Source: Thiobacillus sp.
GTDB lineage: Bacteria > Pseudomonadota > Gammaproteobacteria > Burkholderiales > Thiobacillaceae
DNA length: 32,215 nucleotides
Assembly: GCA_024709685.1 (NCBI GenBank)
Contig: JANJWF010000101.1
Location: 1-32,215, forward strand
Direction: 5' to 3'
The position numbers were made by a program, and so were the translations under genes. The notes beneath the pieces are model-generated. The model had not been told where the DNA came from and searched no databases. It saw only the letters and a list, made by a program, of their open reading frames with translations. Positions within the stretch are counted from its first letter, which is position 1. Each line of letters opens with the position of its first letter. Of this stretch, positions 10,005 to 32,215 are shown piece by piece.

Positions 10005-10030
10005 GCCGGGCCAGCGTGCTTGTGCCCGGC
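10005..10030 (+). promoter_or_regulatory. Intercistronic hairpin between pstS and pstC
   Basis: A 7-bp perfect stem (GCCGGGC 10005-10011 with GCCCGGC 10024-10030) with a 12-base loop lies in the 113-base pstS-pstC gap and has no T-run. Such hairpins often protect the 3' end of a binding-protein message so that it is more abundant than the membrane subunits. That role is inferred here. Confidence 0.45.
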
Positions 10031-10101
10031 TAGCTTCGAAAGCGGCTGCCCCCTGGGGCTGTTTTCGGAGATAACAAACCGAACCGATAGGCACCCCCAT
10101 C

Positions 10102-11079: not shown

Positions 11080-11082
11080 AAC

Positions 11083-11928: not shown

Positions 11929-11945
11929 ATTCACCGGAGCTTCTG

Positions 11946-12728: not shown

Positions 12729-12757
12729 CCTCCATTTGCCTGCAACGGCGGCGGCGG

Positions 12758-12786
12758 TTGACCGTGCGGCGCGTTGCGCTTACCAT
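12758..12786 (+). promoter_or_regulatory. Candidate sigma-70 promoter for tpiA
   Basis: TTGACC (12758-12763) and TACCAT (12781-12786) are separated by exactly 17 bases, and the tpiA ATG lies 26 bases after the -10. The site sits in the 84-base gap after pstB and would free tpiA-secG from phosphate control. Confidence 0.6.
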
Positions 12787-12812
12787 CGCGGACTTTTGTT
12801 TGGCGGACTCCC

Positions 12813-13559: not shown

Positions 13560-13568
13560 GAGCAAATC

Positions 13569-13919
13569 ATGGAAACACTGGTCTGGGTCGTTCACATTAT
13601 CGTCGCCATAGCAGTCATCGCGCTGGTGCTGTTGCAGCATGGCAAGGGTGCCGACATGGGTGCAGCCTTCGGCAGCGGATCGTCGGGCAGTCTGTTCGGG
13701 GCTACGGGCTCGGCCAATTTTCTGAGTCGCAGCACGGCGGTTCTCGCGTCGCTGTTCTTTCTGACCAGCCTGGGCCTGGCGTATTTCGGGCTTCAGCAGC
13801 ACAAACCCGCCAGCGTGATCGAACGTACGGCGGTACCGGCGAAGGCCGCACAGCCTGCTGCGCCCGCTCAGGTTCCGGGCCAGAACAGTGGCTCGAAAGC
13901 GGGAGACATTCCGCAATAA
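13569..13919 (+). CDS. secG: Preprotein translocase subunit SecG
   Basis: Small accessory subunit of the SecYEG protein-export channel. The 116-residue protein has two membrane segments (about 3-20 and 53-72) joined by a glycine-rich loop with the family pattern KGADMGAAFGSGSSGSLFG. The C-terminal tail after residue 80 is Ala/Pro/Gln-rich and probably disordered; such tails vary in this family. It lies between tpiA and tRNA-Leu, a common order upstream of nuo operons in proteobacteria. Confidence 0.94.
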   Translation: METLVWVVHIIVAIAVIALVLLQHGKGADMGAAFGSGSSGSLFGATGSANFLSRSTAVLASLFFLTSLGLAYFGLQQHKPASVIERTAVPAKAAQPAAPAQVPGQNSGSKAGDIPQ

Positions 13920-13951
13920 ATCAGCAGTACGCATTGGGCACCAGCCTATTG

Positions 13952-14036
13952 GCCGACGTGGTGGAATTGGTAGACACGCTATCTTGAGGGGGTAGTGACG
14001 CAAGTCGTGCGAGTTCGAGTCTCGCCGTCGGCACCA
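13952..14036 (+). tRNA. tRNA-Leu (anticodon GAG)
   Basis: An 85-base class II tRNA with encoded CCA. The acceptor stem pairs GCCGACG (13952-13958) with CGTCGGC (14026-14032), then A and CCA (14034-14036). The D-arm has the leucine-type GTGGAATTGGTAGACACG. The anticodon stem CTATC/GGTAG encloses TTGAGGG with GAG at 13986-13988, reading CUU/CUC. A long variable arm is present (GTGACGCAAGTCGTGC region), and the T-arm has GAGTTCGAGTCTC. It is close to E. coli tRNA-Leu(GAG) from recall. Confidence 0.97.
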
Positions 14037-14056
14037 ACGAACAAAACAACGCGTAT

Positions 14057-14126
14057 CATCCGGCGATGACGATCTGCCATGTACGCGCATGAAAATGCAT
14101 TCGGCGCCCCTGAAAAACGCCGGATG
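14057..14126. repeat. Inverted repeat CATCCGGCG/CGCCGGATG
   Basis: Perfect 9-bp arms at 14057-14065 and 14118-14126 with a 52-base interior that itself contains GCAT gaaa ATGC (14089-14100 region). It starts 20 bases after tRNA-Leu. It could fold at the end of the tRNA transcript or be a protein-binding palindrome; no T-run follows. Confidence 0.5.
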
Positions 14127-14179
14127 CTTGCTTCGTCAGCCATTTGCCGGCGGGCACGAATTGCAGGTAATCTGCTCGA

Positions 14180-14254
14180 AAACCCGCGTGGTTGCTTGGG
14201 TTCGGCGATGCGGCATGAGGGAGTCAAGCAGCAACTCCCAGCAAACCCGCGTGG
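14180..14254. repeat. 12-bp direct repeat AAACCCGCGTGG
   Basis: Two exact copies at 14180-14191 and 14243-14254, 63 bases apart start to start, in the non-coding gap upstream of nuoA. A small hairpin lies between them and another overlaps the second copy. The function is unknown; they could be binding sites or the trace of a short duplication. Confidence 0.5.
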
Positions 14255-14366
14255 ATTCTGGTGATTCGAATCCAGCAATTTCCATCATCAAATTTCCTGA
14301 TTGGTTCATTAGTGTGCGCTATTGGATAAGCTGTTGATTTTAAATAAAAATGTGCCAATTTTTTGC

Positions 14367-14396
14367 TTGACAGTAGACGCTTCGCACTAATAAACT
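14367..14396 (+). promoter_or_regulatory. Likely nuo operon promoter
   Basis: A perfect -35 TTGACA (14367-14372) is followed after 18 bases by TAAACT (14391-14396); overlapping alternatives such as TAATAA (14388-14393) would have a shorter 15-base spacer. The preceding DNA is AT-rich. The site is 50 bases before the nuoA start and is the only convincing promoter for the complex I genes here. Confidence 0.6.
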
Positions 14397-14445
14397 TCGA
14401 GCCATAGTTACTCATCAGCCCATGTGGGCTTAGTGGTGGAATCCG

Positions 14446-14802
14446 GTGCTGGAGAATTACCTCCCCATTCTGTTGTTCATTCTGGTCGGGCTGGCGTTTG
14501 GGATCGGCCCCATCATTGCAGGTGGCCTGCTGGCACCGCACCGTCCCGATAGCGAAAAACTCTCTCCCTACGAATGTGGCTTCGAGGCGTTTGAGGACGC
14601 GCGCATGAAATTCGACGTGCGCTACTACCTCGTTGCCATCCTGTTCATCCTGTTCGATCTGGAAATCGCCTTTCTTTTCCCCTGGGCCATCGTGCTCGAG
14701 GAAATCGGTTTGGCCGGCTTCGTTTCCATGATGGTCTTTCTCGGCATCCTGGTGGTCGGATTCATCTACGAATGGATGAAGGGGGCGCTGGAGTGGGAGT
14801 GA
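14446..14802 (+). CDS. nuoA: NADH-quinone oxidoreductase subunit A
   Basis: Membrane subunit of proton-pumping complex I. At 118 residues it has three membrane segments (about 4-27, 62-82 and 88-108). The loop after the first has the family pattern [21 protein letters not shown] with its conserved Cys and acidic residues, and [12 protein letters not shown] marks the second segment. Start is GTG at 14446, which gives [11 protein letters not shown] as in relatives; TGGTGGA upstream can serve as the ribosome site. First gene of the nuo operon. An unusual 142-base spacer separates it from nuoB. Confidence 0.95.
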
Positions 14803-14938
14803 GGCTTTTGAGCTGCTGGGCGAGGGGCCCCGCGGCAGGGGGGATCGACCCGGCGAAAAGGCCTGCCCGCGACGCACGAGGGGCGGGTTCGTCGCTGAGG
14901 CTTGTGGAGCGGGCGCGAGCGAGCCGCTGGGCTAGGGG
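14800..14938. repeat. GC-rich spacer with near-duplicated ends between nuoA and nuoB
   Basis: Two segments recur: TGAGGCTT...GAGC at 14800-14813 and 14896-14910, and GAGCTGCTGGGCGAGGGG (14810-14827) against GAGCCGCTGGGCTAGGGG (14921-14938), 16 of 18 identical. Between them lie an imperfect inverted repeat (CGCGGCAGG near 14831-14839 with CCTGCCCGCG 14863-14872) and a 6-bp stem GCGACG/CGTCGC (14869-14874/14890-14895). The first repeat includes the nuoA stop codon. It looks like a small palindromic element or duplication inserted in an otherwise tight operon. Confidence 0.5.
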
Positions 14939-14944
14939 GGGCGC

Positions 14945-15421
14945 ATGAGCATCGAAGGCGTCCTCGAGCAAGGCTTCGTCACCACCAAGGCCGACCAGCT
15001 CATCAACTACATGCGCACCGGATCGATGTGGCCGATGACCTTTGGCTTGGCATGCTGCGCGGTGGAGATGATGCAGGCCGGCGCCGCGCGCTACGATCTC
15101 GACCGCTTTGGCATCGTGTTTCGCCCGAGCCCCAGACAATCGGATGTGATGATCGTGGCGGGCACGCTATGCAACAAGATGGCGCCCGCGTTGCGCAAGG
15201 TCTACGACCAGATGGCCGAACCCCGTTGGGTGATTTCAATGGGATCGTGTGCCAACGGCGGCGGTTACTACCACTATTCGTATTCGGTGGTGCGCGGGTG
15301 CGACCGCATCGTGCCGGTCGATATCTACGTACCGGGCTGTCCGCCCACTGCGGAAGCGCTGTTGTTCGGCATCATCCAACTGCAGAACAAGATTCGCCGC
15401 ACCAATACCATCGCCCGTTAA
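14945..15421 (+). CDS. nuoB: NADH-quinone oxidoreductase subunit B
   Basis: Peripheral-arm subunit that holds the terminal [4Fe-4S] cluster N2, the electron donor to quinone. The 158-residue protein carries all four ligands: adjacent C37-C38 ([10 protein letters not shown]), C102 ([12 protein letters not shown]) and C132 (YVPGCPP). The start ATG at 14945 follows a G-rich CTAGGGGGGG that can act as ribosome site. nuoC begins six bases after the stop. Identification is certain. Confidence 0.97.
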
Positions 15422-15427
15422 TCCCTC

Positions 15428-16027
15428 ATGCCCCAGACTTTGGACGCCCTTTCTTTGTCCCTTGAAAAAACGCTCGGCGATGCACTGGTGCAGTCTTTTG
15501 TCCGCCTGGGAGAGCTGACGCTGGTCATCAAGCCGCAACACTATGCATCGGCAATGCGTGCGCTTCGCGATCATCCGGATTGTCGCTTCGAGCAACTGAT
15601 CGATCTGTGCGGCATCGATTACTCCGACTACGGAAATGGCGCCTGGGAAGGCGCGCGTTTTGCCGTGGTGGTGCATCTGCTGTCTGTTTCAAGCAACCAG
15701 CGCGTACGGGTGCGCGTGTCCTGCCCCGACGACAACCTGCCGGTGGTGGCCACGATGGTCGATCTCTGGCCGTCCGCCAACTGGTTTGAGCGCGAAGCCT
15801 TCGATCTGTACGGCATCGTGTTCGAGGGGCACCCCGACCTGCGCCGCATTCTCACCGACTACGGGTTCATCGGCCATCCTTTCCGCAAGGACTTCCCTCT
15901 CTCCGGCAACGTCGAGATGCGCTACGACCCAACCCAGCAGCGAGTGATCTATCAGCCGGTTTCGATTGCACCGCGCGAAGTCACCCCGCGCATCGTGCGT
16001 GACGAGAGCTACGGGGAAGGGCGCTGA
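15428..16027 (+). CDS. nuoC: NADH-quinone oxidoreductase subunit C
   Basis: Peripheral-arm subunit (30-kDa type) that packs against NuoD; it binds no cofactor. At 199 residues it is a separate protein, not the fused NuoCD of E. coli. The family signature is visible near the middle and end: [20 protein letters not shown], then [16 protein letters not shown]. It ends with TGA one base before the nuoD ATG, so translation is probably coupled. Confidence 0.96.
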
Positions 16028-16028
16028 C

Positions 16029-17282
16029 ATGGGCGAAATACGCAATTACACGATGAATTTCGGGCCGCAGCATCCGGCCGCACACGGCGTGCTGCGCCTG
16101 GTGCTCGAACTCGACGGCGAGGTGATCCAGCGCGCCGATCCGCACATCGGCCTGCTGCACCGCGCGACCGAGAAGCTCGCCGAGCACAAGACCTATCTGC
16201 AGTCGGTGCCCTACATGGACCGGCTCGACTATGTGTCGATGATGGTCAACGAGCATGCCTACGTGATGGCGATCGAGAAGCTTCTTGGCATCGAGGTGCC
16301 CGAGCGCGCGCAATACATCCGCGTGATGTTCGACGAGATCACGCGCATCCTCAATCACCTGCTGTGGCTCGGCGCGCACGCACTCGACGTCGGCGCGATG
16401 ACAGTTTTCCTGTACGCCTTTCGCGAGCGCGAGGACCTGATGGACGTCTACGAGGCGGTGTCCGGCGCACGCATGCATGCCGCCTACTACCGGCCCGGCG
16501 GCGTCTATCGCGATCTGCCGGACACGATGCCGCAGTACCAGGCACAGCACACCCGCAGCGAGCGGACGATGAAATCGATGAACGCCAACCGGCAGGGGTC
16601 GTTACTCGATTTCATCGAAGATTTCACCAAGCGTTTCCCGGGCTACGTCGACGACTACGAAACGCTGCTGACCGAAAACCGCATCTGGAAGCAGCGTACC
16701 GTCGGCATCGGCGTGGTGTCGCCCGAGCGTGCCCAGGCGCTGGGTTTCACCGGACCGATGCTGCGCGGCTCGGGCATCGAATGGGACCTGCGCAAGAAGC
16801 AGCCCTACGAAGTCTACGACCGCATGGATTTCGACATCCCGGTCGGCACCAATGGCGACTGCTACGACCGCTACCTGGTGCGCGTCGAGGAAATGCGCCA
16901 GTCCAACCGCATCATCCAGCAGTGCATCGACTGGCTGCGCAAGAACCCCGGCCCGGTCGTCACCGCCAACCACAAGGTCGCGCCGCCGCCGCGGATCGAC
17001 ATGAAGCAGAACATGGAAGAGCTGATCCACCACTTCAAGCTCTTCTCCGAGGGCATGCACGTGCCGGAGGGTGAGGCCTATGCGGCAGTCGAACACCCCA
17101 AGGGCGAGTTCGGGATCTACCTGGTGTCGGACGGGGCCAACAAGCCTTATCGCCTGAAAATCCGTGCGCCGGGCTATGCCCATCTGGCGGCACTCGATGA
17201 GATGAGCCGCGGACATATGATCGCCGACGTCGTTGCCATCATCGGCACGCAGGATATCGTTTTCGGAGAGATCGACCGTTGA
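16029..17282 (+). CDS. nuoD: NADH-quinone oxidoreductase subunit D
   Basis: 49-kDa-type subunit that forms the quinone-binding cavity with NuoB. At 417 residues it begins [20 protein letters not shown], and the cavity motif [13 protein letters not shown] follows. Other family blocks are [21 protein letters not shown]-like [10 protein letters not shown] and [13 protein letters not shown]. The frame is open 63 bases upstream into nuoC, but the start at 16029 after GGGGAAGGGCG matches relatives. Its TGA overlaps the nuoE ATG (TGATG). Confidence 0.97.
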
Positions 17283-17782
17283 TGGCCAACCCTGATTTGA
17301 ACAACCTGCGGCTGAGTGCTGAATCCCTCGCGTTGATCGATGCTGAGATTGCCAAATACCCACCGGACCAGAAGCAGTCGGCGGTGATGGCTGCGCTGCG
17401 CATCGCGCAAACCGAACGCGGCTGGCTCAAGCCCGATCTCATCGAATACGTCGCGGACTATCTCGAGATGCCGGCGATCGCCGCATATGAGGTTGCCACG
17501 TTCTACAACATGTACGACACCCAGCCGGTGGGGCGTCACAAGATCACCTTGTGCACCAATCTTCCGTGCATGCTGAGGGGGGCGAACGAGGTTGCGGAGC
17601 GTCTCAGGGAAAGGCTCGGAATCGACTTTGGCGAGACCACCGAGGACGGACGCTTCACGCTGAAGGAAGGCGAGTGCATGGGCGCCTGTGGCGATTCGCC
17701 GCTGTGTCTGCACAACAACCACACGATGCATACTCACCTGACGCCAGAGCAGGTCGACGAGTTGCTGGACAAGCTGAAATGA
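17282..17782 (+). CDS. nuoE: NADH-quinone oxidoreductase subunit E
   Basis: 24-kDa-type subunit of the NADH-dehydrogenase module; it carries [2Fe-2S] cluster N1a. At 166 residues it has the ligands C91 and C96 (CTNLPC) and C132 and C136 (CMGAC). An upstream in-frame TTG is possible, but the ATG at 17282, overlapping the nuoD stop by one base, is the natural start. Its stop overlaps the nuoF ATG (ATGA). The N-terminal half ([17 protein letters not shown]) is the usual helical region. Confidence 0.96.
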
Positions 17783-19059
17783 GTTTGCTGAAGCCGACAC
17801 CGCAGGTCTGCAGCTGGACGCAGGCGCTCGACGACCCGGCATCGCTCGCGACCTATGTCGCGAACGGCGGCTACCAGGCATTGCGCCGCATCGTCACCGA
17901 GAAGGTGCAAGGTGACGACATCATCGCCGAACTCAAGACCAGCGCGCTGCGCGGGCGGGGGGGGGCGGGTTTTCCGACCGGGCTCAAGTGGAGCTTCATG
18001 CCGCGTGCGTTCCCGGGCGACAAGTACATCGTCTGCAACAGCGACGAGGGCGAGCCGGGCACTTTCAAGGACCGCGACATCCTGCGCTACAACCCGCACC
18101 AGCTGATCGAGGGGATGGCGATCGCAGGCTACGTGCTGGGCGCGCGGACGGGCTACAACTACATCCACGGCGAAATCTTCGAGGTCTATGAAACCTTCGA
18201 GCGTGCGTTGAAGGACGCGCGCGAGGCCGGCTACCTTGGCGACAACCTGTTCGGCACCGATTTCAGCTTTCAGCTGCACGCGCACCACGGCTATGGCGCC
18301 TACATCTGCGGCGAGGAAACGGCGCTGCTGGAATCGATTGAGGGCAAGAAGGGCCAGCCGCGCTTCAAGCCGCCGTTTCCGGCCAGCTTCGGTCTGTACG
18401 GCAAACCGACAACGATCAACAACACCGAGACACTCGCCTCGGTGCCATGGATCATGCAGCATGGGGGGCAGGCCTTCCTGGAACTCGGCAAGCCCAATAA
18501 CGGCGGGTCGAAGCTCTTCTCGGTCTCGGGCCACGTCAACAAGCCGGGCAACTTCGAAGTGCCGCTCGGTACGCCGTTTTCTGAACTGCTCGCGATGGCG
18601 GGAGGGGTGCGCGACGGTCACAAATTGAAAGCAGTGATCCCGGGCGGATCATCCGCGCCTGTGCTGCCGGCCGACATCATGATGGACTGCACCCTGGATT
18701 TCGACTCCATCGCCAAGGCGGGGTCCATGCTGGGGTCAGGTGCAGTCATCGTGATGGACGAAACGGTGTGCATGGTGCGCGCACTGGAACGGCTGTCCTA
18801 TTTCTATTTCGAGGAATCGTGTGGCCAGTGCACACCGTGCCGCGAAGGCACCGGATGGATGTACCGGGTGATCCATCGCATCGAGCACGGCCAGGGGCGG
18901 CCGGAAGACATGGATCTGCTCAACAGCGTGGCGGGAAATATCGCCGGCCACACGATCTGTGCGCTGGGCGATGCGGCAGCGATGCCGGTGCAGAGCTTCC
19001 TCAAACATTTCGGCGATGAGTTCGCGTACCACGTCGAACACAAGCGTTGCATGGTGTGA
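17779..19059 (+). CDS. nuoF: NADH-quinone oxidoreductase subunit F
   Basis: 51-kDa-type subunit that oxidises NADH; it binds FMN and [4Fe-4S] cluster N3. At 426 residues it shows the nucleotide-binding loop [11 protein letters not shown], the FMN/NADH stretch [14 protein letters not shown] and [15 protein letters not shown]. Cluster ligands are C348, C351, C354 ([10 protein letters not shown]) and C394. The start is the ATG at 17779 overlapping the nuoE stop; a longer frame upstream is a shadow of nuoE. A run of nine G (17957-17965) codes for part of the RGRGG loop and could be prone to slippage or sequencing error; the frame is intact. Confidence 0.97.
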
Positions 19060-19063
19060 TCAG

Positions 19064-21439
19064 ATGGCTACCTTGAACATCGAAATCGACGGCAAGTCGG
19101 TGCAAGTCGAAAGCGGAGACACCATCATGGATGCGGCGAACCAGGCCGGCATCACGATTCCGCATTTCTGTTATCACAAGAAACTCTCCATCGCTGCCAA
19201 CTGCCGGATGTGCCTGGTTCAGGTGGAGAAGGCGCCGAAGCCGCTGCCCGCCTGCGCCACGCCGGTGACCGACGGAATGAAGGTTCACACGCGCTCTGAG
19301 TACGCGATCGACGCGCAGAAAAGCGTGATGGAATTTCTGCTTATCAACCATCCACTCGATTGCCCGATCTGCGACCAGGGCGGCGAGTGCACGCTGCAGG
19401 ATCTGGCAGTGGGCTACGGCGGTTCGTCGTCGCGCTACCATGAAATGAAGCGCGTGGTACGCGAAAAAAATCTCGGTCCGCTGATCGCCACCGACATGAC
19501 GCGCTGCATCCACTGCACCCGCTGCATACGTTTCGGCCAGGAAATCGGCGGTGTGATGGAACTCGGCATGGCCAGTCGCGGCGAGCATGCCGAGGTGATG
19601 CCGTTTCTGGAAAGCCAGGTGGCGTCCGAGCTGTCAGGCAACGTCATCGACCTGTGCCCGGTCGGCGCGCTGACCAGCAAGCCCTTCCGCTACACCGCGC
19701 GCTCCTGGGAATTGTCGCGCCGCCCCTCGATCAGCCCGCACGACAGCCTCGGCTCCAACCTAGAAGTCCAGGTCAAGGACAACAAGGTGATACGTGTGCT
19801 GCCGCGCGAGAACGAGGATGTCAACGAGTGCTGGCTGGCGGACCGTGACCGCTTCTCCTACGAAGGCCTCAACACGGCCGAGCGCCTGACCCAGCCGATG
19901 GTCAAGCACGACGGCCAGTGGGTCGAGACCACCTGGCAGGCTGCGCTCGAGTTTGTGGCGAACAAATTGAAGGCGATCCTGGCCGGGGAGATCGGCGCAC
20001 TGTCGACGCCGTATCGGCCGGCGGAGGAGCTCTTCCTGCTGCAGAAACTGATGCGCGGCCTGGGCAGCGGCAACGTCGACCACCGCCTGCGGCAGTCGGA
20101 TTTCTCGCTCGACGACACGGCTCACGGGGGCTTCTGGCTGGGTATGCCGGTGACTTACATGTCACGGCTCAACCGTATGCTGGTGGTGGGCTCGAATCTG
20201 CGCAAGGATCATCCGCTGATGGCGCACCGTATCCGCGAATCGGTGCGCTGGAACGGACAGCTCAATCTCATCAACGCGGCGGATGACGAGTTTCTCGGCA
20301 AGGTGCACGCCAAGCGCATCGTCGCGCCTTCCCAGCTCGCCGGCACCCTGGCGGGCGTGTGCCGCGCGCTGGCCGAACTGAAAAACCTGCCGGTCCCCGA
20401 TATCGCCGCACACGGCATCGCCGACGACGCCGCGCGCAGGATGGCCGAGAGCATTTCGGGTGGCGGCCAGGGCGCTTCGGGTGCAGAAGCGCGCGCGGTC
20501 TTCCTCGGCAACATGGCGCAGCACCATCCCAGCTATTCGCAGATTCACGCCCTGGCGCAGGAAGTGGCGAAGCTTGCGGGCGCGAGCTTCGGTGTCCTCG
20601 GCGAGGCGGCCAACAGCGTTGGCGCGGTGGCGGTCGGCGCGGTTCCGGCGCATGGCGCCCTGGGCCAGCCCGCCATCAAGGGCCTGAACGCGCAGCAGAT
20701 GCTGGCAAAGCCGCTGCGTGCCTATCTTCTGCTGGGTGTCGAAGCCGAACTCGACACCCATGACCCGGTGGCCGCGATGGCCAGTATCGACGCGGCAGAG
20801 TTCGTCGTGGTGATGTCGCCGTACAAGGGGAAATCGCTCGACTACGCCGATGTATTGTTGCCGATCGCGCCCTGGACTGAGACTTCGGGCACCTTCATCA
20901 ATACCGAGGGCCGCGTGCAAAGCTTCACTGCCGTGGTCAAGCCGCTTGGCGATACGCGCCCGGCCTGGAAGGTGCTGCGCGTGCTGGGCAATCTGCTGGG
21001 TCTGTCAGGATTCGATCACAACGATTCACGGGACGTCTTGCGCGATGCGCTGGGAGAAACGCCCACCGGTTCGGTGCAGGCTTTCCTCAGCAACGAGGTT
21101 GGCGCCGTGCCGGTGGCGCTGCCACACGCAGGCAAGGGACTGGAGCGCGTCGCCGAAGTGCCGATCTATCAGACCGATGCCGTGGTGCGTCGATCGCCGT
21201 CGCTGCAGATGACCCTCGACGCGGCGCTGCCCGTGGCCCGCATGCACAGCCGTCTGATCGGGAAGCTGGGCCTGGAGGAGAACGGCCGTGTCTCGGTGCG
21301 TCAGACTGCCGGCGCCCTGACGCTGAAGGTGCAGCGTGATGACCTGCTGCCCGATGACTGCGTTCGCATTCCAAGCGGCCACCCGCTGACGGCCGCGCTC
21401 GGGCCGATGTTCGGCGCGATCACGGCGGAGCCGGTCTGA
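19064..21439 (+). CDS. nuoG: NADH-quinone oxidoreductase subunit G
   Basis: 75-kDa-type subunit carrying a chain of iron-sulfur clusters. The 791-residue protein has [2Fe-2S] ligands C36, C47, C50, C64; the His-coordinated [4Fe-4S] set H96, C100, C103, C109 ([14 protein letters not shown]); and a third set C148, C151, C154, C198. After these comes a molybdopterin-oxidoreductase-like region. I see no Cys set for the extra N7 cluster known from E. coli. The ATG at 19064 gives [13 protein letters not shown]; the frame upstream to 18959 is within nuoF. It overlaps nuoH by one base. Confidence 0.96.
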
Positions 21440-22975: not shown

Positions 22976-23620
22976 ATGAGCTATACGACCTCGATTTTCT
23001 ATTTCTTTGCCGCCATCCTGGTGTTTGCAGGATTGCGCGTGATCACCGCGCGCAACCCGGTGCATGCCGCGCTGTTTCTGGTACTGGCCTTCTTCACCGC
23101 AGCGGGCCTGTGGATGCTGCTGGAAGCAGAATTTCTCGCCATCACCCTGGTGCTGGTCTACGTCGGAGCGGTGATGGTGCTGTTCCTGTTCGTGGTGATG
23201 ATGCTCGATATCAACCTAGACAAGCTGCGCGAGGGGTTCTGGGATTACCTGCCGCTCGCCGGTTTCGTCGCAGTGCTTCTGATGATCGAGATGGCGCTGA
23301 TTCTGGGTGGCCGCCACTTCGGGCTGGACGTGACCGGCGTGCCGGCGCGCCATGCTGCCGATTACAGCAACACCAAGGAACTCGGCCGCCTGCTGTACAC
23401 CGATTATGTCTATGCATTCGAACTGGCGGCGGTGATCCTGCTGGTGGCGATTGTCGCGGCGATTGCGCTGACGTTGCGCCGCCGCAAGGACAGCAAGTAC
23501 ATCGACCCCGCCGAGCAGGTGAGAGTCAGGCGCGGCGATCGCCTGCGTATCGTGAAAATGCAGGCCGAAAAGAAGGGGTCAGGGCCCGGCAGCCCGGATT
23601 CGGGGGGGGAGGGCGCATGA
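22976..23620 (+). CDS. nuoJ: NADH-quinone oxidoreductase subunit J
   Basis: Membrane subunit of complex I near the base of the pumping arm. At 214 residues it has five membrane segments; the third contains [20 protein letters not shown], the conserved region with the pi-bulge. The C-terminal tail is polar and ends in Gly/Ser/Pro-rich sequence ([14 protein letters not shown]) encoded partly by a G8 run (23602-23609). An upstream in-frame TTG (22961) is possible, but the ATG at 22976 gives the family start [11 protein letters not shown]. The stop overlaps the nuoK ATG. Confidence 0.95.
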
Positions 23621-23922
23621 TTTCCTTGTCGCATTACCTGGTGCTGGGCGGCATCCTGTTTGCCATCAGCGTGCTGGGCATCTTCCTCAACCGCAAGAAC
23701 GTCATCATCCTGCTGATGGCGATCGAACTCATGCTGCTCGCGGTGAACATGAATTTCATCGCGTTCTCGCATTATCTGGGCGACATCCACGGCCAGGTAT
23801 TCGTGTTCTTCATTCTTACCGTTGCCGCGGCCGAATCTGCGATCGGCCTGGCGATTCTTGTGGTGCTGTTCCGTAGTCTGCACACGATCAACGTCGATGA
23901 CCTCGACCAACTGAAAGGCTGA
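23617..23922 (+). CDS. nuoK: NADH-quinone oxidoreductase subunit K
   Basis: Small antiporter-like membrane subunit. At 101 residues it has three membrane segments and the two conserved membrane glutamates needed for proton transfer, E37 (MAIELML) and E73 ([10 protein letters not shown]), which match E36 and E72 of E. coli. Start ATG at 23617 overlaps the nuoJ stop (ATGA) and is preceded by GGGGAGGG, a strong ribosome site lying within nuoJ. It ends three bases before nuoL. Confidence 0.96.
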
Positions 23923-23925
23923 CGC

Positions 23926-25932
23926 ATGGATATGCAGATGCTTTATCTGATCGTGCCGCTGGCGCCGCTTTTCGGGGCGATCGTCGCGGGCCTTTTCGGC
24001 AGGCTCATCGGGCGTAGGGGTGCCCATGTCGTCGCCCTCGCCGGCGTGGCGATATCGTTCATCGCCTCGTGGGTGGTGTTCCAGGATGTGCTCATCGGCA
24101 ACACATTCAACGGCTCGGTCTACACCTGGATGGCGCTGGGCAACCTGCGCTTCGAGGTCGGTTTCCTGATCGATCCGCTCTCGGCGATGATGATGCTCGT
24201 CGTCACCTTCGTGTCGCTGATGGTGCACGTCTACACCATCGGCTACATGCGCGACGACCCCGGTTATCAGCGCTTCTTCAGCTACATCTCGCTGTTCACC
24301 TTCTCGATGCTCATGCTGGTGATGAGCAACAACTTCCTCCAGCTGTTCTTCGGCTGGGAGGCGGTCGGGCTGGTGTCCTATCTGCTGATCGGTTTCTGGT
24401 ACACCAAGGAAAGTGCGATCTACGCCGGCCTCAAGGCCTTCCTGGTCAACCGCGTGGGCGACTTCGGCTTCATCCTCGGCATCGGTCTGGTGCTGGCGTA
24501 TTTCGGCACGCTCGACTACGCCACCGTGTTCGTCCGCGCGCCTGCGCTCGCCGACACGACCATTACGTTATTGCCCGGCACGCCGTGGCTGCTGATGACC
24601 GTCATCGGCATCCTGCTGTTCATCGGCGCGATGGGCAAGTCGGCGCAATTCCCGTTGCACGTCTGGCTGCCCGACTCGATGGAAGGTCCGACGCCGATTT
24701 CCGCGTTGATTCACGCGGCGACCATGGTCACCGCCGGCATCTTCATGGTCGCGCGCATGTCGCCGCTTTTCGAACTGTCCGACGTGGCGCTCTCCTTCAT
24801 GATGGTGATCGGCGCGATCACCGCGCTGTTCATGGGTTTGCTCGGCATCGTGCAGAATGACATCAAGCGGGTGGTGGCGTACTCGACGCTGTCCCAGTTG
24901 GGTTACATGACGGTCGCGCTTGGCGCCTCGGCCTACTCGGTCGCGGTATTCCACCTGATGACCCACGCCTTCTTCAAGGCGCTGCTGTTTCTCGCCGCGG
25001 GCTCGGTCATCATCGCCATGCACCACAATCAGGACATCCGCTACATGGGCGGCCTGAAGAAACACATGCCGATCACCTGGATCACCTCGCTGGTCGGGTC
25101 GCTGGCGCTGATCGGCACGCCTTTCCTGTCGGGTTTCTACTCGAAGGAGACCATCATCGAGGCGGCGAGACTGTCGCACCTGCCGGGTTCCGGTTTCGCT
25201 TACGTGGCGGTGGTGGCCGGTGTATTCGTCACCGCGTTCTATTCCTTCCGCATGTATTTCCTGGTGTTCCACGGCAAGGAACGCTTCCGGCAGGGACACG
25301 CGCACGGCAACGAGCCCGATGCGCACCACGACGACCACCATGGTCACGGCGGCACCCCGCATGAAACCCCCTGGGTGATCACCGGCCCGCTGCTGGCGCT
25401 GGCGCTGCCTTCGCTGGCAATCGGCTACATGACTATCGAGCCGATGCTGTTCGGCGAGTTCTTCGGCAAGTCAATCTATGTCGCCGACCGCCACCCGGTG
25501 ATGAACGAGCTCAACCGGGAATTCCACGGCCCGTGGGCGATGGGGCTGCATGCAGTGATGACGCTGCCGTTCTGGCTTGCGGCCGCGGGCGTGGCGCTGT
25601 CCGCGTTCTTCTACCTCAAGCGTCCGGACATTCCGGCGGCGCTCGCGCGGCGCTTCCAGTTCCTCTACCGGCTGCTGGTCAACAAATACTGGTTCGACGA
25701 ACTCTACGGCTGGATGTTTGCCAAGGGCGCGCGGATGCTCGGCACCGGGCTGTGGCGCGGCGGTGACCAGGGCGTGATCGACGGCCTCATCGTCAATGGC
25801 TCCGCGCGTCTTGTCGAACGTGTCTCCCGTCTCGCCAGGGTACTGCAGTCGGGCTACATCTATCACTATGCCTTCGCCATGCTGATCGGGGTGTTCTCCC
25901 TGGTTACCTGGTGGTTCCTGCGGCTCAACTAA
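23926..25932 (+). CDS. nuoL: NADH-quinone oxidoreductase subunit L
   Basis: Large antiporter-like proton-pumping subunit with the long lateral helix. At 668 residues it has the expected ~16 membrane segments. Family blocks are LFFGWEAVGLVSYLLIGFW, FPLHVWLPDSMEGPTPISAL, IHAATMVTAG and the K-containing NDIKRVVAYSTLSQLGYM. A histidine-rich cytoplasmic or periplasmic loop (HHDDHHGHGG, about residues 456-483) lies before the last third; I recall similar loops in betaproteobacterial NuoL. The C-terminus (YIYHYAFAMLIGVFSLVTWW) is intact. nuoM follows after 11 bases. Confidence 0.96.
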   Translation: MDMQMLYLIVPLAPLFGAIVAGLFGRLIGRRGAHVVALAGVAISFIASWVVFQDVLIGNTFNGSVYTWMALGNLRFEVGFLIDPLSAMMMLVVTFVSLMVHVYTIGYMRDDPGYQRFFSYISLFTFSMLMLVMSNNFLQLFFGWEAVGLVSYLLIGFWYTKESAIYAGLKAFLVNRVGDFGFILGIGLVLAYFGTLDYATVFVRAPALADTTITLLPGTPWLLMTVIGILLFIGAMGKSAQFPLHVWLPDSMEGPTPISALIHAATMVTAGIFMVARMSPLFELSDVALSFMMVIGAITALFMGLLGIVQNDIKRVVAYSTLSQLGYMTVALGASAYSVAVFHLMTHAFFKALLFLAAGSVIIAMHHNQDIRYMGGLKKHMPITWITSLVGSLALIGTPFLSGFYSKETIIEAARLSHLPGSGFAYVAVVAGVFVTAFYSFRMYFLVFHGKERFRQGHAHGNEPDAHHDDHHGHGGTPHETPWVITGPLLALALPSLAIGYMTIEPMLFGEFFGKSIYVADRHPVMNELNREFHGPWAMGLHAVMTLPFWLAAAGVALSAFFYLKRPDIPAALARRFQFLYRLLVNKYWFDELYGWMFAKGARMLGTGLWRGGDQGVIDGLIVNGSARLVERVSRLARVLQSGYIYHYAFAMLIGVFSLVTWWFLRLN

Positions 25933-25943
25933 CAAGCACAGCG

Positions 25944-26207
25944 ATGTTCGGACAGGAAATCCTCTCTCTCGTTATCTGGGTCCCGATCGTCGCCGGGATC
26001 GCGGTGCTCGCCACCGGATCCGACCGCAATGCGCCGCTGGCACGCATGCTGGCGCTGCTCGGCGCGCTGCTCGGCTTCATCGTCGCGATCCCGCTGGCCA
26101 CCGGTTTCGACACCGCTACCGCGGCGATGCAGTTCGTCGAGAAAAAATCGTGGATCCCGGCATTCAACGTCCATTATCACCTCGGCGTCGATGGCATCTC
26201 CATGCCG
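25944..26207 (+). pseudogene. nuoM: NADH-quinone oxidoreductase subunit M, 5' fragment cut at the chimeric join
   Basis: Antiporter-like subunit of complex I. Only about 88 of the usual ~490-500 codons are present. They read as a normal NuoM N-terminus with two membrane segments (EILSLVIWVPIVAGIAVLAT and MLALLGALLGFIVAIPLA) and the stretch HYHLGVDGISMP, at which family members continue with hydrophobic residues. Instead the frame runs into 17 unrelated codons (QKPSSIPRDLKG...) and stops at 26259-26261. The gene is not decayed: no frameshift precedes the break. I read this as an intact gene truncated by a mis-join. nuoN, expected next, is missing for the same reason. Confidence 0.93.
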
Positions 26208-26213
26208 CAAAAG
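26205..26213. other. Chimeric junction between two genomes
   Basis: To the left, nuoM matches its family to codon 88 (CCG at 26205-26207). To the right, the frame beginning at 26210 (AAA GCC TTC) matches glucose-6-phosphate dehydrogenase. The two genes are in different frames, both are cut internally, and composition drops from GC-rich to AT-rich within tens of bases. No mobile element, repeat or attachment site borders the point. Confidence 0.92.
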
Positions 26214-26692
26214 CCTTCGTCGATACCCCGCGATTTAAAGGGGTACCCTTCTACTTATTGACAGGGAAAGCTTTAGAACAAAAAGAATCGGTCATCATCA
26301 TTGAATTTGAAGAAACATCCGAACAACATAAATGGGATTTGCCATTATTCACCAATAAGCTTTATATCAAAATAGCCCCTCAAGATGGCATTAGTTTGAC
26401 CTTGAACTCTAAAGTACCAGGGTTACGAAATGCCGTTGAAGAAGTGGACTTGGATTATTGTGTTGCATGTAACGCGGTAGGTAACTTACCAGAAGCCTAT
26501 GAAAAACTCATCTTAGACATGACCAAACACAGCAAATCCCTTTTCACCCGTTGGGATGAAATTGAGCTTTCATGGCAATTCATTGATCAAGTTAAACAAG
26601 ATATCGTTAACAAACAAATCCCACTTCGCATATACAAGAACCATCAAGAACTTTATGACCTCATATATGAAATGACAGGAGAATTGATTTAA
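26210..26692 (+). pseudogene. zwf: Glucose-6-phosphate dehydrogenase, C-terminal fragment cut at the chimeric join
   Basis: G6PD oxidises glucose-6-phosphate with NADP in the pentose phosphate pathway. About 160 C-terminal residues remain of the usual ~480-490. Recognisable blocks are TPRFKGVPFYLLTGKAL (family: RWxGVPFYxRTGK), SLTLNSKVPG, LPEAYEKLILDMTKHSKSLFTRWDEIELSW and the end region. The N-terminal Rossmann domain and catalytic His residues lie beyond the join. An ATG at 26150 opens the same frame, but its first 20 codons are out-of-frame nuoM sequence and it is not a real start. The stop TAA abuts the next ATG. It was probably an intact gene in its source genome. Confidence 0.85.
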
Positions 26693-27313
26693 ATGAAAAT
26701 CTACGATATTTCGATGGAAATCCATCCAGATATGCCGGTTTATAAGGATTTACCTTCCAAAAAGCCAACCTTCAAAAATGTAGCGAACTTTAAAGATCAA
26801 AGCCACTATGAAACAGACGTGACGATGAATGTCCACAGTGGTACCCATGTGGACTTCAATTTACACATGATCGATGGTGGAGACACCAGCAGTGAAGCCA
26901 AACTAGACCACTACATCAGTGAAGCTCGTGTATTTGATTTATCCTATGTATTAGAAACCATTACGAAAGAAAATTTAGTGAATTTAGCCATACATAAGAA
27001 CGATTTTGTGATCTTTAAAACCAGAAATTCTCAAGACGAAGGTTTCAATCCTAACTTTGTATTCGTTGGTGAATCTGCAGCGAACTATTTAGCAGAAATT
27101 GGCATCAAAGGCGTCGGCATCGATGCGTTAGGTATTGAAAGAAGCCAAACAGGTCATCCTACCCACAAAGCATTGATGTCTAAAAATATCATCATTTTGG
27201 AAGGACTTCGTCTAGCAAACATCCGTAGTGGGTCTTACACCTTGATTGCTTTACCACTCAAACTACGCGGTTTAGATGCTTCACCAGTCAGAGCTATTCT
27301 TTTAGGAAACTAA
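26693..27313 (+). CDS. Cyclase-family protein (kynurenine-formamidase-like metal hydrolase)
   Basis: A 206-residue protein of the cyclase family (PF04199 type), which includes KynB, isatin hydrolase and actinomycete polyketide cyclases. The metal-binding motif HxGTHxD is present as VHSGTHVDFNLH, with H48, H52, D54 and H58 as probable ligands. Later family blocks are VGIDALGIE (cf. GIDTLSID) and HKALMSKNIIILEGL. The substrate cannot be told from sequence; no tryptophan-degradation genes are nearby, so KynB activity is not assumed. The ATG directly follows the zwf stop and has AGGAGA upstream, so the two were probably co-transcribed. A strong terminator overlaps its stop. Confidence 0.85.
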   Translation: MKIYDISMEIHPDMPVYKDLPSKKPTFKNVANFKDQSHYETDVTMNVHSGTHVDFNLHMIDGGDTSSEAKLDHYISEARVFDLSYVLETITKENLVNLAIHKNDFVIFKTRNSQDEGFNPNFVFVGESAANYLAEIGIKGVGIDALGIERSQTGHPTHKALMSKNIIILEGLRLANIRSGSYTLIALPLKLRGLDASPVRAILLGN

Positions 27314-27332
27314 GCCATTTAGTTTCCTTTTT
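27305..27332 (+). terminator. Rho-independent terminator after the cyclase gene
   Basis: A 9-bp stem (GGAAACTAA 27305-27313 with TTAGTTTCC 27319-27327) with a 5-base loop is followed by five T (27328-27332). The 5' arm includes the TAA stop codon. It closes the zwf-cyclase transcript. Confidence 0.88.
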
Positions 27333-27358
27333 GTCATCAATAAACGCTATGTTATAAT
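27331..27358 (+). promoter_or_regulatory. Promoter for the CotH-family gene
   Basis: TTGTCA (27331-27336) and a perfect TATAAT (27353-27358) are spaced by 16 bases. The -35 begins within the T-run of the preceding terminator. The ATG lies 18 bases after the -10, with GAGGT as ribosome site between. Confidence 0.7.
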
Positions 27359-27376
27359 GATATTGAGGTATGTCAT

Positions 27377-28843
27377 ATGAAACGATTTTGGATTTTGATT
27401 TTGGGCATCACATTTTTGGTTGGATTGGCGGGTTGTACGCCCCCTGAAGAAACCAAAGCGTTGGTCCTAGATGAAGTACCAACACAAATCACTGCCGATT
27501 TTGCTTTACCAACTGTATATGAAGATTTTAATCTAGAATGGTTTTTAAATGATGAGCCCATTGGGTTCGTTTTACCAATCAAATATTCTTTCAAAGGCAT
27601 CACCGATGTGTTATCGGTCAAGATGACCAAAGGATTTACAGTCGTCACTGGCGAAAAAGAAGTTACCTACGCCCTCAGTTCAATCACAACCGATTTATAC
27701 ATTCAAACCGAAAACAATCAAAGTATCACCTCAAAAGATACCTATGTTCAAGGTTCAGTTCGACTAGACTCTGATGTCGATGCATTCGACCAAGAGAATC
27801 TAACGATGGGCATCAAAGGTAGAGGAAACTCCACTTGGGATTTCCCTAAAAAACCATATCGAATCAAATTCACAGAAAGACAAAGTTTGTTGGGTATGCG
27901 TCCCGCCAAAGATTATGTGCTATTGGCTGAATACAACGATAAATCTTTGATTAGAAATTACTTAGCACAATATTTCGCAACTTTATTAGATATTGAATAC
28001 ACGTTGGAAAACCGTTTTGTACAGCTTTATATCAATGGCAATTATAATGGATTATATCTATTAACAGAACAAGTAGAAGTGGATAAGAATCGTTTAAACA
28101 TCGATGAATCGGTGGATGCGGATGGTGGATTCTTAATTGAAATGGAATCCAATGACCGTATTTGGCAAGAAGGCGAAGAAAATCTCAACTGGGTGAAAGT
28201 CGATGATTACAACTATGTCATTAAATCGCCAGATATGGATGAACTCACTGCGACTCAAGTTGAAGGTAAAGTTCAATTCATTAAGAATACCTTAAATACC
28301 TTTATCCAATCCATCGGACAAGGTACTTATGAATCCTACATGGATATGAACCAGTTCATCGATTATTTCATCATTTCTGAACTCTTTAAGCAAGTCGATG
28401 TTGGCTATTCATCCGTGTATATTTACAAAGATAAAAATGAACTCATGCGTATGGGTCCAGTATGGGATTTCGACATTTCAAGTGGGAATGGAGACTATTA
28501 CGATTCGGGTCCTGAAGGCTATTGGGTCGATTACAACCCATGGTTTAATTACTTGATTGATAAACCTGAATTTGAATCTAGATTCATCGTGAGATTCATG
28601 GAAGTCTCGTATCAATATTTTGATCAATTGATTGCAGAACTGGATTTGGTGTCCTCTTTATTATTCACGGATGCGCTAATCAATTTTGAGAAGTGGCAAA
28701 TCCTCGGCATATATGTATGGCCAAATCCACCACAAATGGTCGAAGCGGATACGTATGCAAAACAGATTCAATACTTAAAAAATTATTTAATCCAACGTGA
28801 AGCGTGGTTAACCACCACTTTGACCACGGAGGGGTATCGATAA
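27377..28843 (+). CDS. CotH-family lipoprotein (putative secreted protein kinase)
   Basis: A 488-residue exported lipoprotein. The signal peptide (MKRFWILILGITFLVG) ends in lipobox LAGC, giving a lipid-anchored Cys20. Residues ~25-105 look like a bacterial Ig-like domain. The rest matches CotH: GRGNSTWDFPKKPY, LLAEYNDKSLIRNYLA, LYINGNYNGLYLLTEQVEV with VDKNRLNI, and PVWDFDISSGN near the presumed active site. Bacillus CotH is an atypical kinase of spore-coat proteins, but CotH-like lipoproteins also occur in non-sporeformers, so the substrate is unknown. It forms a single-gene unit with its own promoter and terminator. Confidence 0.87.
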   Translation: MKRFWILILGITFLVGLAGCTPPEETKALVLDEVPTQITADFALPTVYEDFNLEWFLNDEPIGFVLPIKYSFKGITDVLSVKMTKGFTVVTGEKEVTYALSSITTDLYIQTENNQSITSKDTYVQGSVRLDSDVDAFDQENLTMGIKGRGNSTWDFPKKPYRIKFTERQSLLGMRPAKDYVLLAEYNDKSLIRNYLAQYFATLLDIEYTLENRFVQLYINGNYNGLYLLTEQVEVDKNRLNIDESVDADGGFLIEMESNDRIWQEGEENLNWVKVDDYNYVIKSPDMDELTATQVEGKVQFIKNTLNTFIQSIGQGTYESYMDMNQFIDYFIISELFKQVDVGYSSVYIYKDKNELMRMGPVWDFDISSGNGDYYDSGPEGYWVDYNPWFNYLIDKPEFESRFIVRFMEVSYQYFDQLIAELDLVSSLLFTDALINFEKWQILGIYVWPNPPQMVEADTYAKQIQYLKNYLIQREAWLTTTLTTEGYR

Positions 28844-28866
28844 AATAGGCGATTGCCTATTTTTTT
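28844..28866 (+). terminator. Rho-independent terminator after the CotH-family gene
   Basis: A 7-bp stem AATAGGC (28844-28850) with GCCTATT (28855-28861), loop GATT, runs straight into a T-rich tail (28860-28866). The stem starts at the base after the TAA stop. Confidence 0.88.
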
Positions 28867-28892
28867 CGATAGAGAGAAAGCGCTTTATATAG

Positions 28893-28898
28893 TATAAT
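28893..28898 (+). promoter_or_regulatory. -10 element of the probable lplA-gcv operon promoter
   Basis: A perfect TATAAT lies 21 bases before the lipoate-ligase ATG in a very AT-rich stretch, after the preceding terminator. The -35 region (around 28870) is poor. An AGAAGG ribosome site follows. Confidence 0.45.
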
Positions 28899-28919
28899 AT
28901 AAACAGAAGGATGTGAATT

Positions 28920-29891
28920 ATGAAATACGTGAACTTAAGCCGTTACGGCAGACAAATCGATCCTTTTTTCTTTGCGTTAGAAAGCGTCTTACTCGAAGAC
29001 TTGAAGGCAGATTTATTTTTCATTTGGCATGTCTATGGGGCTGTCATCATTGGTAAAAATCAGTTATTAGAAACCGAAGTCAATGAAGCCTTTTTAAAAG
29101 AAAACAATATCCCAGTATTCAGACGTTTGTCTGGTGGTGGGGCAGTATACTCGGATGAAGGGTGTATCAAGTACAGCTTTTTATCCAAAAAATTTGATAA
29201 AGATGTCATTTTCAAAGAATCATTAACCAAAATCAAATCCGTATTTGACGCTTTAAACATACCAGTGGTGTTATCAGGTCGAAATGACATTCTTTTTGAC
29301 GGGAAGAAATTCTCAGGAAACGCCTATTTTCATAATCAATACGGGTCATGTTTACACGGTACCATTTTGTATGACACAGACTTTGAAACCTTGGTCAAAT
29401 CGATAACACCTTCGAATGAGAAACTCATCTCTAAAGGCATTGAATCGGTCAGACAACGCGTCACCAACATGAAAAATGTGGTTGGTAAAGACATTGAAGA
29501 TTTTACCCATTTCTTGGTGAATCAATTGACCGATGGTGAATACGTATTAACCGAAGCACAAGAACAAAAAGTGTTTGAGCGGATGAAACGATTCAGTGAA
29601 CCAAGCTATATCAAAGGCAATAACCCGCCCTATAGTTTTAAACATATGAAGCGATTCAACTGTGGGTCGGTGGGTGTTAAATTAGACATCAACCGCGGAA
29701 TCATCAAAGACTTTATCGTATATGGGGATTATTTCACAGACCAAGAACCCGAAGATTTAAAAGGTTATTTTGTCAATCAACCCTTCCATGTGGAAACCAT
29801 TGAAACAATCATCAATCAATTTCATGTGGGCGATTATATTGTTGGGTTAACCAATGAAGAATTCATCAGTCTATTCAAGGAGGATGTATGA
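28920..29891 (+). CDS. lplA: Lipoate-protein ligase
   Basis: Activates lipoate with ATP and transfers it to a lysine of lipoyl-domain proteins. The 323-residue protein has the ligase motif RRLSGGGAVYSDEG (about 69-82), then SGRNDILFDGKKFSGNA with the conserved lysine that binds lipoyl-AMP, and a C-terminal accessory domain (from about residue 245), so it is a bipartite LplA-type enzyme. Its position at the head of gcvT-gcvH-gcvPA points to GcvH as target. The TGA stop overlaps the gcvT ATG, which also shows that TGA is a stop in this genome. The start follows AGAAGG; an ATG nine bases upstream is followed at once by TGA and cannot be used. Confidence 0.9.
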   Translation: MKYVNLSRYGRQIDPFFFALESVLLEDLKADLFFIWHVYGAVIIGKNQLLETEVNEAFLKENNIPVFRRLSGGGAVYSDEGCIKYSFLSKKFDKDVIFKESLTKIKSVFDALNIPVVLSGRNDILFDGKKFSGNAYFHNQYGSCLHGTILYDTDFETLVKSITPSNEKLISKGIESVRQRVTNMKNVVGKDIEDFTHFLVNQLTDGEYVLTEAQEQKVFERMKRFSEPSYIKGNNPPYSFKHMKRFNCGSVGVKLDINRGIIKDFIVYGDYFTDQEPEDLKGYFVNQPFHVETIETIINQFHVGDYIVGLTNEEFISLFKEDV

Positions 29892-30979
29892 TGGATATGA
29901 AAATCACGTGTCTACACGATAGACACCTCAAACTCGGTGCGAAAATGACCGAATTCGGTGGCTTTGATATGCCGGTATCTTATAAAGGTATCCTACAAGA
30001 ACACCAAGCGGTACGTGAAGCCTGTGGGGTATTTGATTGTTCCCACATGGGCGAGATTGACTTGAAAGGCACAGACGCGGTGAAGTTCTTAAACGAAATC
30101 ACCACCAATGATTTTTCCGATTTAAAAGACAGACAACTACAATACACCTTACTCTGTGAAGCATCGGGTGGGGTCGTCGATGATTTGATGGTTTACCAAT
30201 ACAACAAAGAACACTTTCTATTGGTTGTCAACGCTTCGAATACCACGAAAGATTTTAAATGGTTAACCAGCCATCAATCCGGGTATCAAATCGAATTGTC
30301 CAACGATTCCGAATTTTTTGGACAACTCGCTTTACAAGGACCAAAAGCAGTAGAGGTATTGAAAGGACTCATCCCTGAAGTAGAATCGCTATCCTTCATG
30401 CATTTTGACATGTTTCAATGGAAAAACCACGAATACATCATTTCAAGAAGTGGGTATACGGGTGAAGATGGGTTTGAAATCTATGGGTCACCGAAAGCGA
30501 CCGTTGAACTATGGGACCAACTGATGGGTTTACAAGTTGAACCGTGTGGATTAGGTGCGAGAGATACCTTACGTTTTGAAGCAGGACTCCCCCTCTATGG
30601 CCATGAAATCAATGGGTTCATCACACCACTCGAAGCAGGATTATCTTTGGGGGTTAAACTCCAAAAACCATTCATTGGTAGAGATGTCTTATTGAAACAA
30701 AAAGAACAAGGCCTTGAACGAAGAATCATTGGACTTGAACTGCTCGAAAGAAACATCGCCAGGGATGGGTATATTGTGTATGATGCCAATCAAAAGATGA
30801 TTGGATACATCACCACGGGCTATATGATTCCAAATACATCAAAAGCGCTTGCGAACGCGATGATTGACTCCAATGTTAAAATTGGTACAGAAGTATATGT
30901 TGAAATTAGAAACAAGATGGTGAAAGCCGTCATTAGAAATAGAAAATTCTACGAAAAGAAATATAAAAAAGAGGTCTAG
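29891..30979 (+). CDS. gcvT: Glycine cleavage system T protein (aminomethyltransferase)
   Basis: Transfers the methylene group from the aminomethyl-lipoyl arm of GcvH to tetrahydrofolate, releasing ammonia. At about 362 residues it is the usual length. Family blocks are GGFDMPVSYKGILQEHQAVR, GVFDCSHMGEI, the folate-site region GGVVDDLMVYQ, SRSGYTGEDGFEIY and ARDTLRFEAGLPLYGHEI. Two tandem ATG codons exist: 29888 overlaps the lplA stop (ATGA), 29891 is seven bases after GGAGG and has the better spacing; I use 29891. It is followed after two bases by gcvH. Confidence 0.95.
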   Translation: MDMKITCLHDRHLKLGAKMTEFGGFDMPVSYKGILQEHQAVREACGVFDCSHMGEIDLKGTDAVKFLNEITTNDFSDLKDRQLQYTLLCEASGGVVDDLMVYQYNKEHFLLVVNASNTTKDFKWLTSHQSGYQIELSNDSEFFGQLALQGPKAVEVLKGLIPEVESLSFMHFDMFQWKNHEYIISRSGYTGEDGFEIYGSPKATVELWDQLMGLQVEPCGLGARDTLRFEAGLPLYGHEINGFITPLEAGLSLGVKLQKPFIGRDVLLKQKEQGLERRIIGLELLERNIARDGYIVYDANQKMIGYITTGYMIPNTSKALANAMIDSNVKIGTEVYVEIRNKMVKAVIRNRKFYEKKYKKEV

Positions 30980-30981
30980 AC

Positions 30982-31359
30982 ATGGAAAAAATTCTAAAGG
31001 ATTTACTGTACACCCCAACCCATGAATGGGTTAAGATTGAAAACAATAAAGCGAAGATTGGTATTACGGACTATGCACAACACAGCCTTGGATCAGTGGT
31101 CTTCGTCGATTTGCCAAATATTGGCAGTACATTCGGTCAGTTTGACCCATTTGGCGCGGTAGAATCCGTCAAAGCAGCGTCCGATTTATTGATGCCAATC
31201 ACTGGTAAAGTCATCGCTGTCAATGAAGCTTTACTTTCACAACCAGAACTTTTAAACGACGATGCTTTTGCCAATTGGGTCATCGAAGTTGAAGTCTCTG
31301 ACGCAGCCGAAGTATCTAAATTATTGTCTCCAGAAGCGTATCAAAAGACCCTACATTAG
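30982..31359 (+). CDS. gcvH: Glycine cleavage system H protein
   Basis: Lipoyl carrier protein that shuttles the aminomethyl group between GcvP, GcvT and the L protein. At 125 residues it is typical. The lipoyl-lysine is K64 in the motif GAVESVKAASDL; the family start (TPTHEWVKIE, IGITDYAQHSLG) and end (ANWVIEVEV) are clear. GAGGT precedes the ATG. The TAG stop lies in an AGGAGG that serves as ribosome site for the next gene. Confidence 0.97.
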   Translation: MEKILKDLLYTPTHEWVKIENNKAKIGITDYAQHSLGSVVFVDLPNIGSTFGQFDPFGAVESVKAASDLLMPITGKVIAVNEALLSQPELLNDDAFANWVIEVEVSDAAEVSKLLSPEAYQKTLH

Positions 31360-31367
31360 GAGGACCT

Positions 31368-32215
31368 ATGTTCAAATACTTCCCGCATACTGAGCAAGAC
31401 ATCCAAGAGATGCTTGATAAAATCGGGGTTCAATCGATCGATGAGCTTTTTTTAGATTTACCTAAAAAGCTTCAAACCAAACCCGATTACCAAGTACCGC
31501 TTGCGAAAAGTGAAATTGAGCTCAGAAATCATTTCAAGGGGTTATCGGGTAAAAACCGTGAACTCATCATTTTTAGAGGGGCTGGTGCCTATGACCACTA
31601 TACACCATCAGTCATCCCAGCCATCATTTCAAGAGAAGAATTTTTAACGGCTTACACACCGTATCAACCGGAGATTGCTCAAGGTACACTTCAATACATT
31701 TTTGAATTCCAAAGCATGATTACAGACCTTACCGGGATGGATGTTTCAAACGCCTCCATGTACGATGGTCCAACAGCGACGGCTGAAGCGATGTTTATGG
31801 CCGTCTCTCAAACCAGAAAAAATAAGATTGTACTTTCCGATAACGTCAATCCGAATGTGATTGATGTTGTTAAGACCTATGCATTATATCGTGGTATTGA
31901 AGTCTTGATCATCCCTTCAAAAGCCGGTTTGGTCGACAGAACTTTATTGGATGTAGCGCTTGAAAATGCTGCTGGATTTATCGGCCAAGTACCAAACTAT
32001 TTTGGTTTGGTTGAAAACCTTACGGATGTGTCTGAAAAGGTTCAATCCAAAGGTGGTATCATGATCATCAATGCCGACCCACAAGTCTTAGAGACCATTG
32101 AGTCACCACGCAAGATGAAAGCCGATATCGCATGCGGCGAATGCCAAAGTTTAGGTATTCCTCTATCTTATGGTGGCGCATACGTTGGTTATTTAGGCAC
32201 TACTGAAAAATTATT
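31368..32215 (+). CDS. gcvPA: Glycine dehydrogenase (decarboxylating) subunit 1, 3' cut by window edge
   Basis: N-terminal-half subunit of the split P protein, which decarboxylates glycine with pyridoxal phosphate and loads GcvH. About 282 codons are present of the usual ~440-450; the frame is still open at the last base. Translation from ATG 31368 reads MFKYFPHTEQDIQEMLDKIG, then RGAGAYDHYTPSVIP, AYTPYQPEIAQGTLQYIFEF, ASMYDGPTATAEAM and, near the edge, SLGIPLSYGGAYVGYLGT, all family signatures. AGGAGG lies 3-8 bases upstream. The PLP-binding lysine belongs to subunit 2 (gcvPB), expected next. Use of split P subunits is typical of low-GC Gram-positives and thermophiles, unlike the single GcvP of most proteobacteria. 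Confidence 0.94.
   Translation, partial: MFKYFPHTEQDIQEMLDKIGVQSIDELFLDLPKKLQTKPDYQVPLAKSEIELRNHFKGLSGKNRELIIFRGAGAYDHYTPSVIPAIISREEFLTAYTPYQPEIAQGTLQYIFEFQSMITDLTGMDVSNASMYDGPTATAEAMFMAVSQTRKNKIVLSDNVNPNVIDVVKTYALYRGIEVLIIPSKAGLVDRTLLDVALENAAGFIGQVPNYFGLVENLTDVSEKVQSKGGIMIINADPQVLETIESPRKMKADIACGECQSLGIPLSYGGAYVGYLGTTEKL

Follow-up and report, generated by a model that had tools for sequence, protein, structure and literature searches.

The window analysed here is the entire contig C74 (32,215 nucleotides), which belongs to a bin of 195 contigs with a size of 2.55 Mb, an estimated completeness of 79% and a contamination of 1.3%. All genes described here lie on the forward strand and fall into two sets that meet inside a coding sequence. 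The first part (1 to 26208) is GC-rich and was assigned to the proteobacteria by its protein families and by its matches in congeneric genomes. It carries carB, which is cut by the contig end, ftsH, pstS, pstC, pstB, tpiA, a tRNA-Leu gene and nuo genes up to the start of nuoM. nuoL (23926 to 25932; Pfam Proton_antipo_M/N) is intact, while nuoM is reduced to its first 88 codons plus one base (25944 to 26208), as defined by alignment to 19 congeneric loci and to the nuo locus of another contig of the bin, C114. The second part starts with the last third of zwf, encoding glucose-6-phosphate dehydrogenase (26209 to 26692; Pfam G6PD_C, E = 5.4e-36). It continues with genes for a putative cyclase family protein (26693 to 27313; Pfam Cyclase, 2.5e-21), which has the same position in relatives, a CotH kinase family protein (27377 to 28843; Pfam CotH, 5.7e-47) and a lipoate-protein ligase (28920 to 29891; Pfam LplA-B_cat and Lip_prot_lig_C). 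The glycine cleavage genes gcvT (29888 to 30979; Pfam GCV_T, 1e-89), gcvH (30982 to 31359; Pfam GCV_H, 1.2e-35) and gcvPA (31368 to 32215; Pfam GDC-P) follow, the last of which is cut by the contig end.

Alignment to relatives places the junction between bases 26208 and 26209: the sequence agrees with nuoM through base 26208 and with zwf from base 26209 or 26210 onwards. Matches to the left part end at 26206 to 26208, matches to the right part begin at 26209 to 26210, and the two parents, as judged from their relatives, have no base in common at this point. nuoM and zwf are in different frames, and the nuoM frame encounters a stop 17 codons past the junction. The original prediction had described the window as a chimera of nuoM and zwf joined at 26205 to 26213, with both genes cut internally and fused in different frames, and was thus correct to within a few bases. 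The change from GC-rich to AT-rich DNA, which it had described as lasting to both ends, was likewise observed. The GC content is 0.622 to the left of the junction and 0.390 to the right, neither side reverts to the composition of the other up to the window ends, and the maximum-likelihood change point lies after base 26232 (log-likelihood gain of 528).

The left part was compared by using window positions 23926 to 27313, i.e. nuoL to the first right-hand genes, as query against 60 genomes including its own, 57 of which gave some match. Among the 35 congeneric genomes, 32 showed a match that ended at query base 2281 to 2283, corresponding to window positions 26206 to 26208; G007 gave no match at all, and the matches of G001 and G021 were short and lay in other parts of the query. 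Apart from its own genome, no genome (n = 59) matched this query across the junction. The full-length nuoL-nuoM matches in congeneric genomes are 79 to 88% identical and colinear with the window up to 26208, but the relatives carry a complete nuoM where the window ends after 88 codons. A full-length nuoM of 494 to 506 residues, counted from stop to stop, was found in all 19 congeneric loci that were read from the 32 congeners matching up to the junction. These 19 loci and C114 run on as nuoM at the junction, whereas the window does not. Further upstream, bases 1 to 20000 are mostly 83 to 87% identical to eight chosen congeneric genomes and, except for a short insert at 14037 to 14282, colinear with them to the contig limits. 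The left part had also been called betaproteobacterial, which agrees with one coarse comparison of its NuoL but is not proven by it: among the matches listed from a plasmid collection (10 of 501), two Neisseria records reached 63% identity, Legionella 58%, Paenibacillus 48% and alphaproteobacterial records 42 to 52%.

For the right part, the gcvPA fragment was used to scan named genome contigs. The best 80 of 216 loci were considered, at the top of which were Paracholeplasma vituli, with 88% identity over 282 residues of the protein, and the metagenome-assembled genome (MAG) of Acholeplasmataceae bacterium UBA6235, whose protein is 98% identical over 243 of the 282 residues. When the right part was searched against the genomes of the first four gcvPA loci, all four matched. 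UBA6235 matches on three contigs, at 26210 to 28520 (96% identity), 28908 to 32098 (97%) and 32074 to 32210 (96%), with no match to window positions 28521 to 28907. P. vituli matches at 26210 to 27382 (78%) and 27701 to 32215 (76%) and is colinear to the window end. In the Acholeplasmatales MAG L037, most of the right part is matched in order at 67 to 73% identity, and the fourth genome, L038, gave two short matches only (77 and 66%), which lie on different contigs, so that its gene order is not informative. The order zwf, cyclase, CotH, lplA, gcvT, gcvH and gcvPA is that of an Acholeplasmataceae region seen in UBA6235 and P. vituli, which differs from the window by its intact zwf. The gene encodes 459 residues in UBA6235, in which one contig runs on past the position of the junction into intact zwf, 466 residues in P. 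vituli and 453 residues in L037. The window retains about the last 160 residues and lacks about 299 of the 459 present in UBA6235. The absent remainder of nuoM and the first two-thirds of zwf, noted as missing in the original prediction, are therefore present in relatives, in 19 of 19 and 3 of 3 loci, respectively. Tetranucleotide frequencies of the right part correlate with those of P. vituli and UBA6235 at 0.94 to 0.97. Paracholeplasma is placed by NCBI within the Acholeplasmataceae of the Mycoplasmatota, and the right-hand source, previously described only as low-GC, can on the basis of these matches be named as a member of the Acholeplasmataceae near Paracholeplasma, a bacterium lacking a cell wall.

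Which of the two parts fits the bin was assessed in 20 of the 195 contigs (up to 20 kb each) together with C114; one contig without letters was dropped, which left n = 20. All 20 have GC contents between 0.621 and 0.676, a range in which the 0.622 of the left part lies at the lower edge. Their tetranucleotide correlations to the left part are 0.895 to 0.98, and those to the right part range from -0.19 to -0.32. Elsewhere in the bin, the right part had no match at an E value of 0.001, and 20 kb of P. vituli around zwf and gcv matched, besides C74, only three short stretches at 66 to 71%. The left end of C74 (bases 1 to 141) is an exact 141-base overlap with the bin contig C170. The checks proposed along with the original prediction, namely a tetranucleotide comparison of the halves, separate searches with each half and a search for contigs with the intact genes, had these outcomes: the sampled bin contigs resemble the left part only, the left half finds a proteobacterial genus and the right half Acholeplasmataceae, and intact genes are present on C114 (nuoM-nuoN) and in UBA6235, P. 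vituli and L037 (zwf).

C114 (L003, 7103 to 11397) contains the 3' part of nuoL, an intact nuoM (494 amino acids) and an intact nuoN (497 amino acids). Given these intact genes, C74 is no basis for arguing that complex I is lost, and the earlier statement that loss of nuoM would disable complex I fails for the bin as given. Over window positions 24627 to 26208, C114 is only 84% identical to C74. The bin thus holds two nuoL versions. Either at least one of the two contigs belongs to another strain or species, for instance a contaminating sister species, or a second copy exists. A 20-kb stretch of C10, another bin contig, found its longest match among eight congeners in G015 (82%), which does not decide which nuo version is native. 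The idea that the remainder of the left part's own nuoM lies on another bin contig was rejected, as a search with the equivalent segment from the closest relative yielded C114 alone (80% identity).

The two-source make-up of C74 is established by these sequence comparisons. We consider it very probable that C74 is a fusion of DNA from two phyla that occurred during library preparation, sequencing or assembly, with 1 to 26208 derived from the bin's own proteobacterial genus and 26209 to 32215 from an Acholeplasmataceae organism near UBA6235 and Paracholeplasma. C74 shares its features with other inter-genome chimeric contigs in MAGs: two genomes, an exact single breakpoint, truncation of both genes, a composition of its own on each side and a join seen in no searched relative. 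It differs in having no shared word at the breakpoint, which makes a chimeric read or template likelier than a repeat-induced join. The largest default word of the MEGAHIT assembler is 141. The assembly of the bin appears to have used 141-base words, and the 141-base contig overlaps, a second exact example of which connects C114 (L003, 1 to 141) with C173, are probably the trace of this word length. Ordinary k-mer ambiguity cannot account for the join, because the breakpoint contains no shared word, and a join via a shared word was accordingly rejected. With 141-base words and no shared base, a bridging read or template would have been required, which points to a chimeric molecule or read. Most likely, one or a few such reads or templates would have bridged two thinly covered ends. 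A repeat or a tRNA attachment site was rejected as a cause, since neither is present at the junction: no repeat spanning it was found, and the sole tRNA gene of the window lies at 13952 to 14036, an Rfam search likewise yielding only a tRNA.

A finished contig assembled from a real DNA molecule would look identical to one assembled from a chimera, and real transfer between the phyla has to be weighed against the artefact. In one form, Acholeplasmataceae DNA would have been inserted very recently into nuoM of a proteobacterial chromosome, and the recipient strain would have retained another nuo cluster in intact form. The clean single point with zero shared bases is compatible with such an event, and intact nuoM-nuoN on C114 implies that the disruption need not be lethal. 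Against it, both genes are cut within their coding sequence, no match in the 35 congeners crosses the join, and the contig stops within the foreign part after 6 kb without any return to host sequence. Moreover, composition and gene order of the foreign part have remained its own, and its identity to a MAG from a different organism amounts to 96 to 97%. No transposase or integrase was detected among the 17 open reading frames (ORFs) with an assigned family (20 ORFs scanned, a part of those in the window), and the junction has no repeat or tRNA. We therefore regard this insertion as highly unlikely.

Its formal mirror image, in which an Acholeplasmataceae chromosome would recently have acquired proteobacterial DNA, is extremely improbable: it demands 26 kb of core genes (carB, ftsH and nuo), it has to accommodate the exact 141 bases that the far end of C74 shares with another contig of the proteobacterial bin, and zwf is intact and uninterrupted in the related UBA6235. 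That no junction exists and a single genome changes sharply in composition has practically no probability left; this reading found nothing in its favour and is refuted by the two matched phyla with breakpoints at the same base. Real inter-phylum transfer is thus improbable, with a small residual probability kept, and the preference of the original prediction for an artefact is supported by the fact that each parental lineage was identified independently and is colinear with its own relatives only up to the join. The gene neighbourhood of C74 is almost certainly an artefactual rather than a real one, and the rejection of a linkage of complex I to glycine cleavage, as called for in the original prediction, is upheld. 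C74 is an ordinary metagenomic artefact without biological novelty and matters solely for quality control. It introduces approx. 6 kb of mollicute genes, i.e. the zwf fragment and those for CotH kinase, lipoate ligase and glycine cleavage, into a proteobacterial genome record, and inferences on operons, gene transfer or metabolism drawn from this record would mislead its users.

The left part may itself be mixed. In a tree of 21 rows, window positions 22980 to 24800 are sister to G015 (support 0.95), with 88.6% identity to G015 versus 84.1% to G014. Positions 25400 to 26206 group with G014 and G010 (support 0.999, 22 rows; 90.9% identity to G014), and C114 groups with G015 in this second tree. 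The tree segments were picked after viewing the identity profile, and the affinity signal between 24.8 and 25.6 kb is ambiguous. Judged from these trees, the nearest relative may change from G015-like to G014-like at approx. 24.8 to 25.6 kb, within 24600 to 26208. Such a shift inside nuoL would represent a second, within-genus switch of the assembly or, as a natural alternative, recombination between relatives, and a further species of the genus may be the source of about the last kilobase of the proteobacterial part.

Two further features of the left part were observed. The insert at 14037 to 14282 (approx. 246 bases) lies immediately 3' of the tRNA-Leu(gag) gene. It is absent, with adjoining flanks, in six of the eight congeners compared, the stretch diverges more widely in the other two, and none of 40 other genomes had a match to it. 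It contains a 17-base repeat in three copies, spaced by 64 and 63 bases and 71 to 100% identical. In the pstS region, positions 9041 to 9984 have an 89% identical stretch on the bin contig C76, which could be a paralogue or a further sign of a mixed bin.
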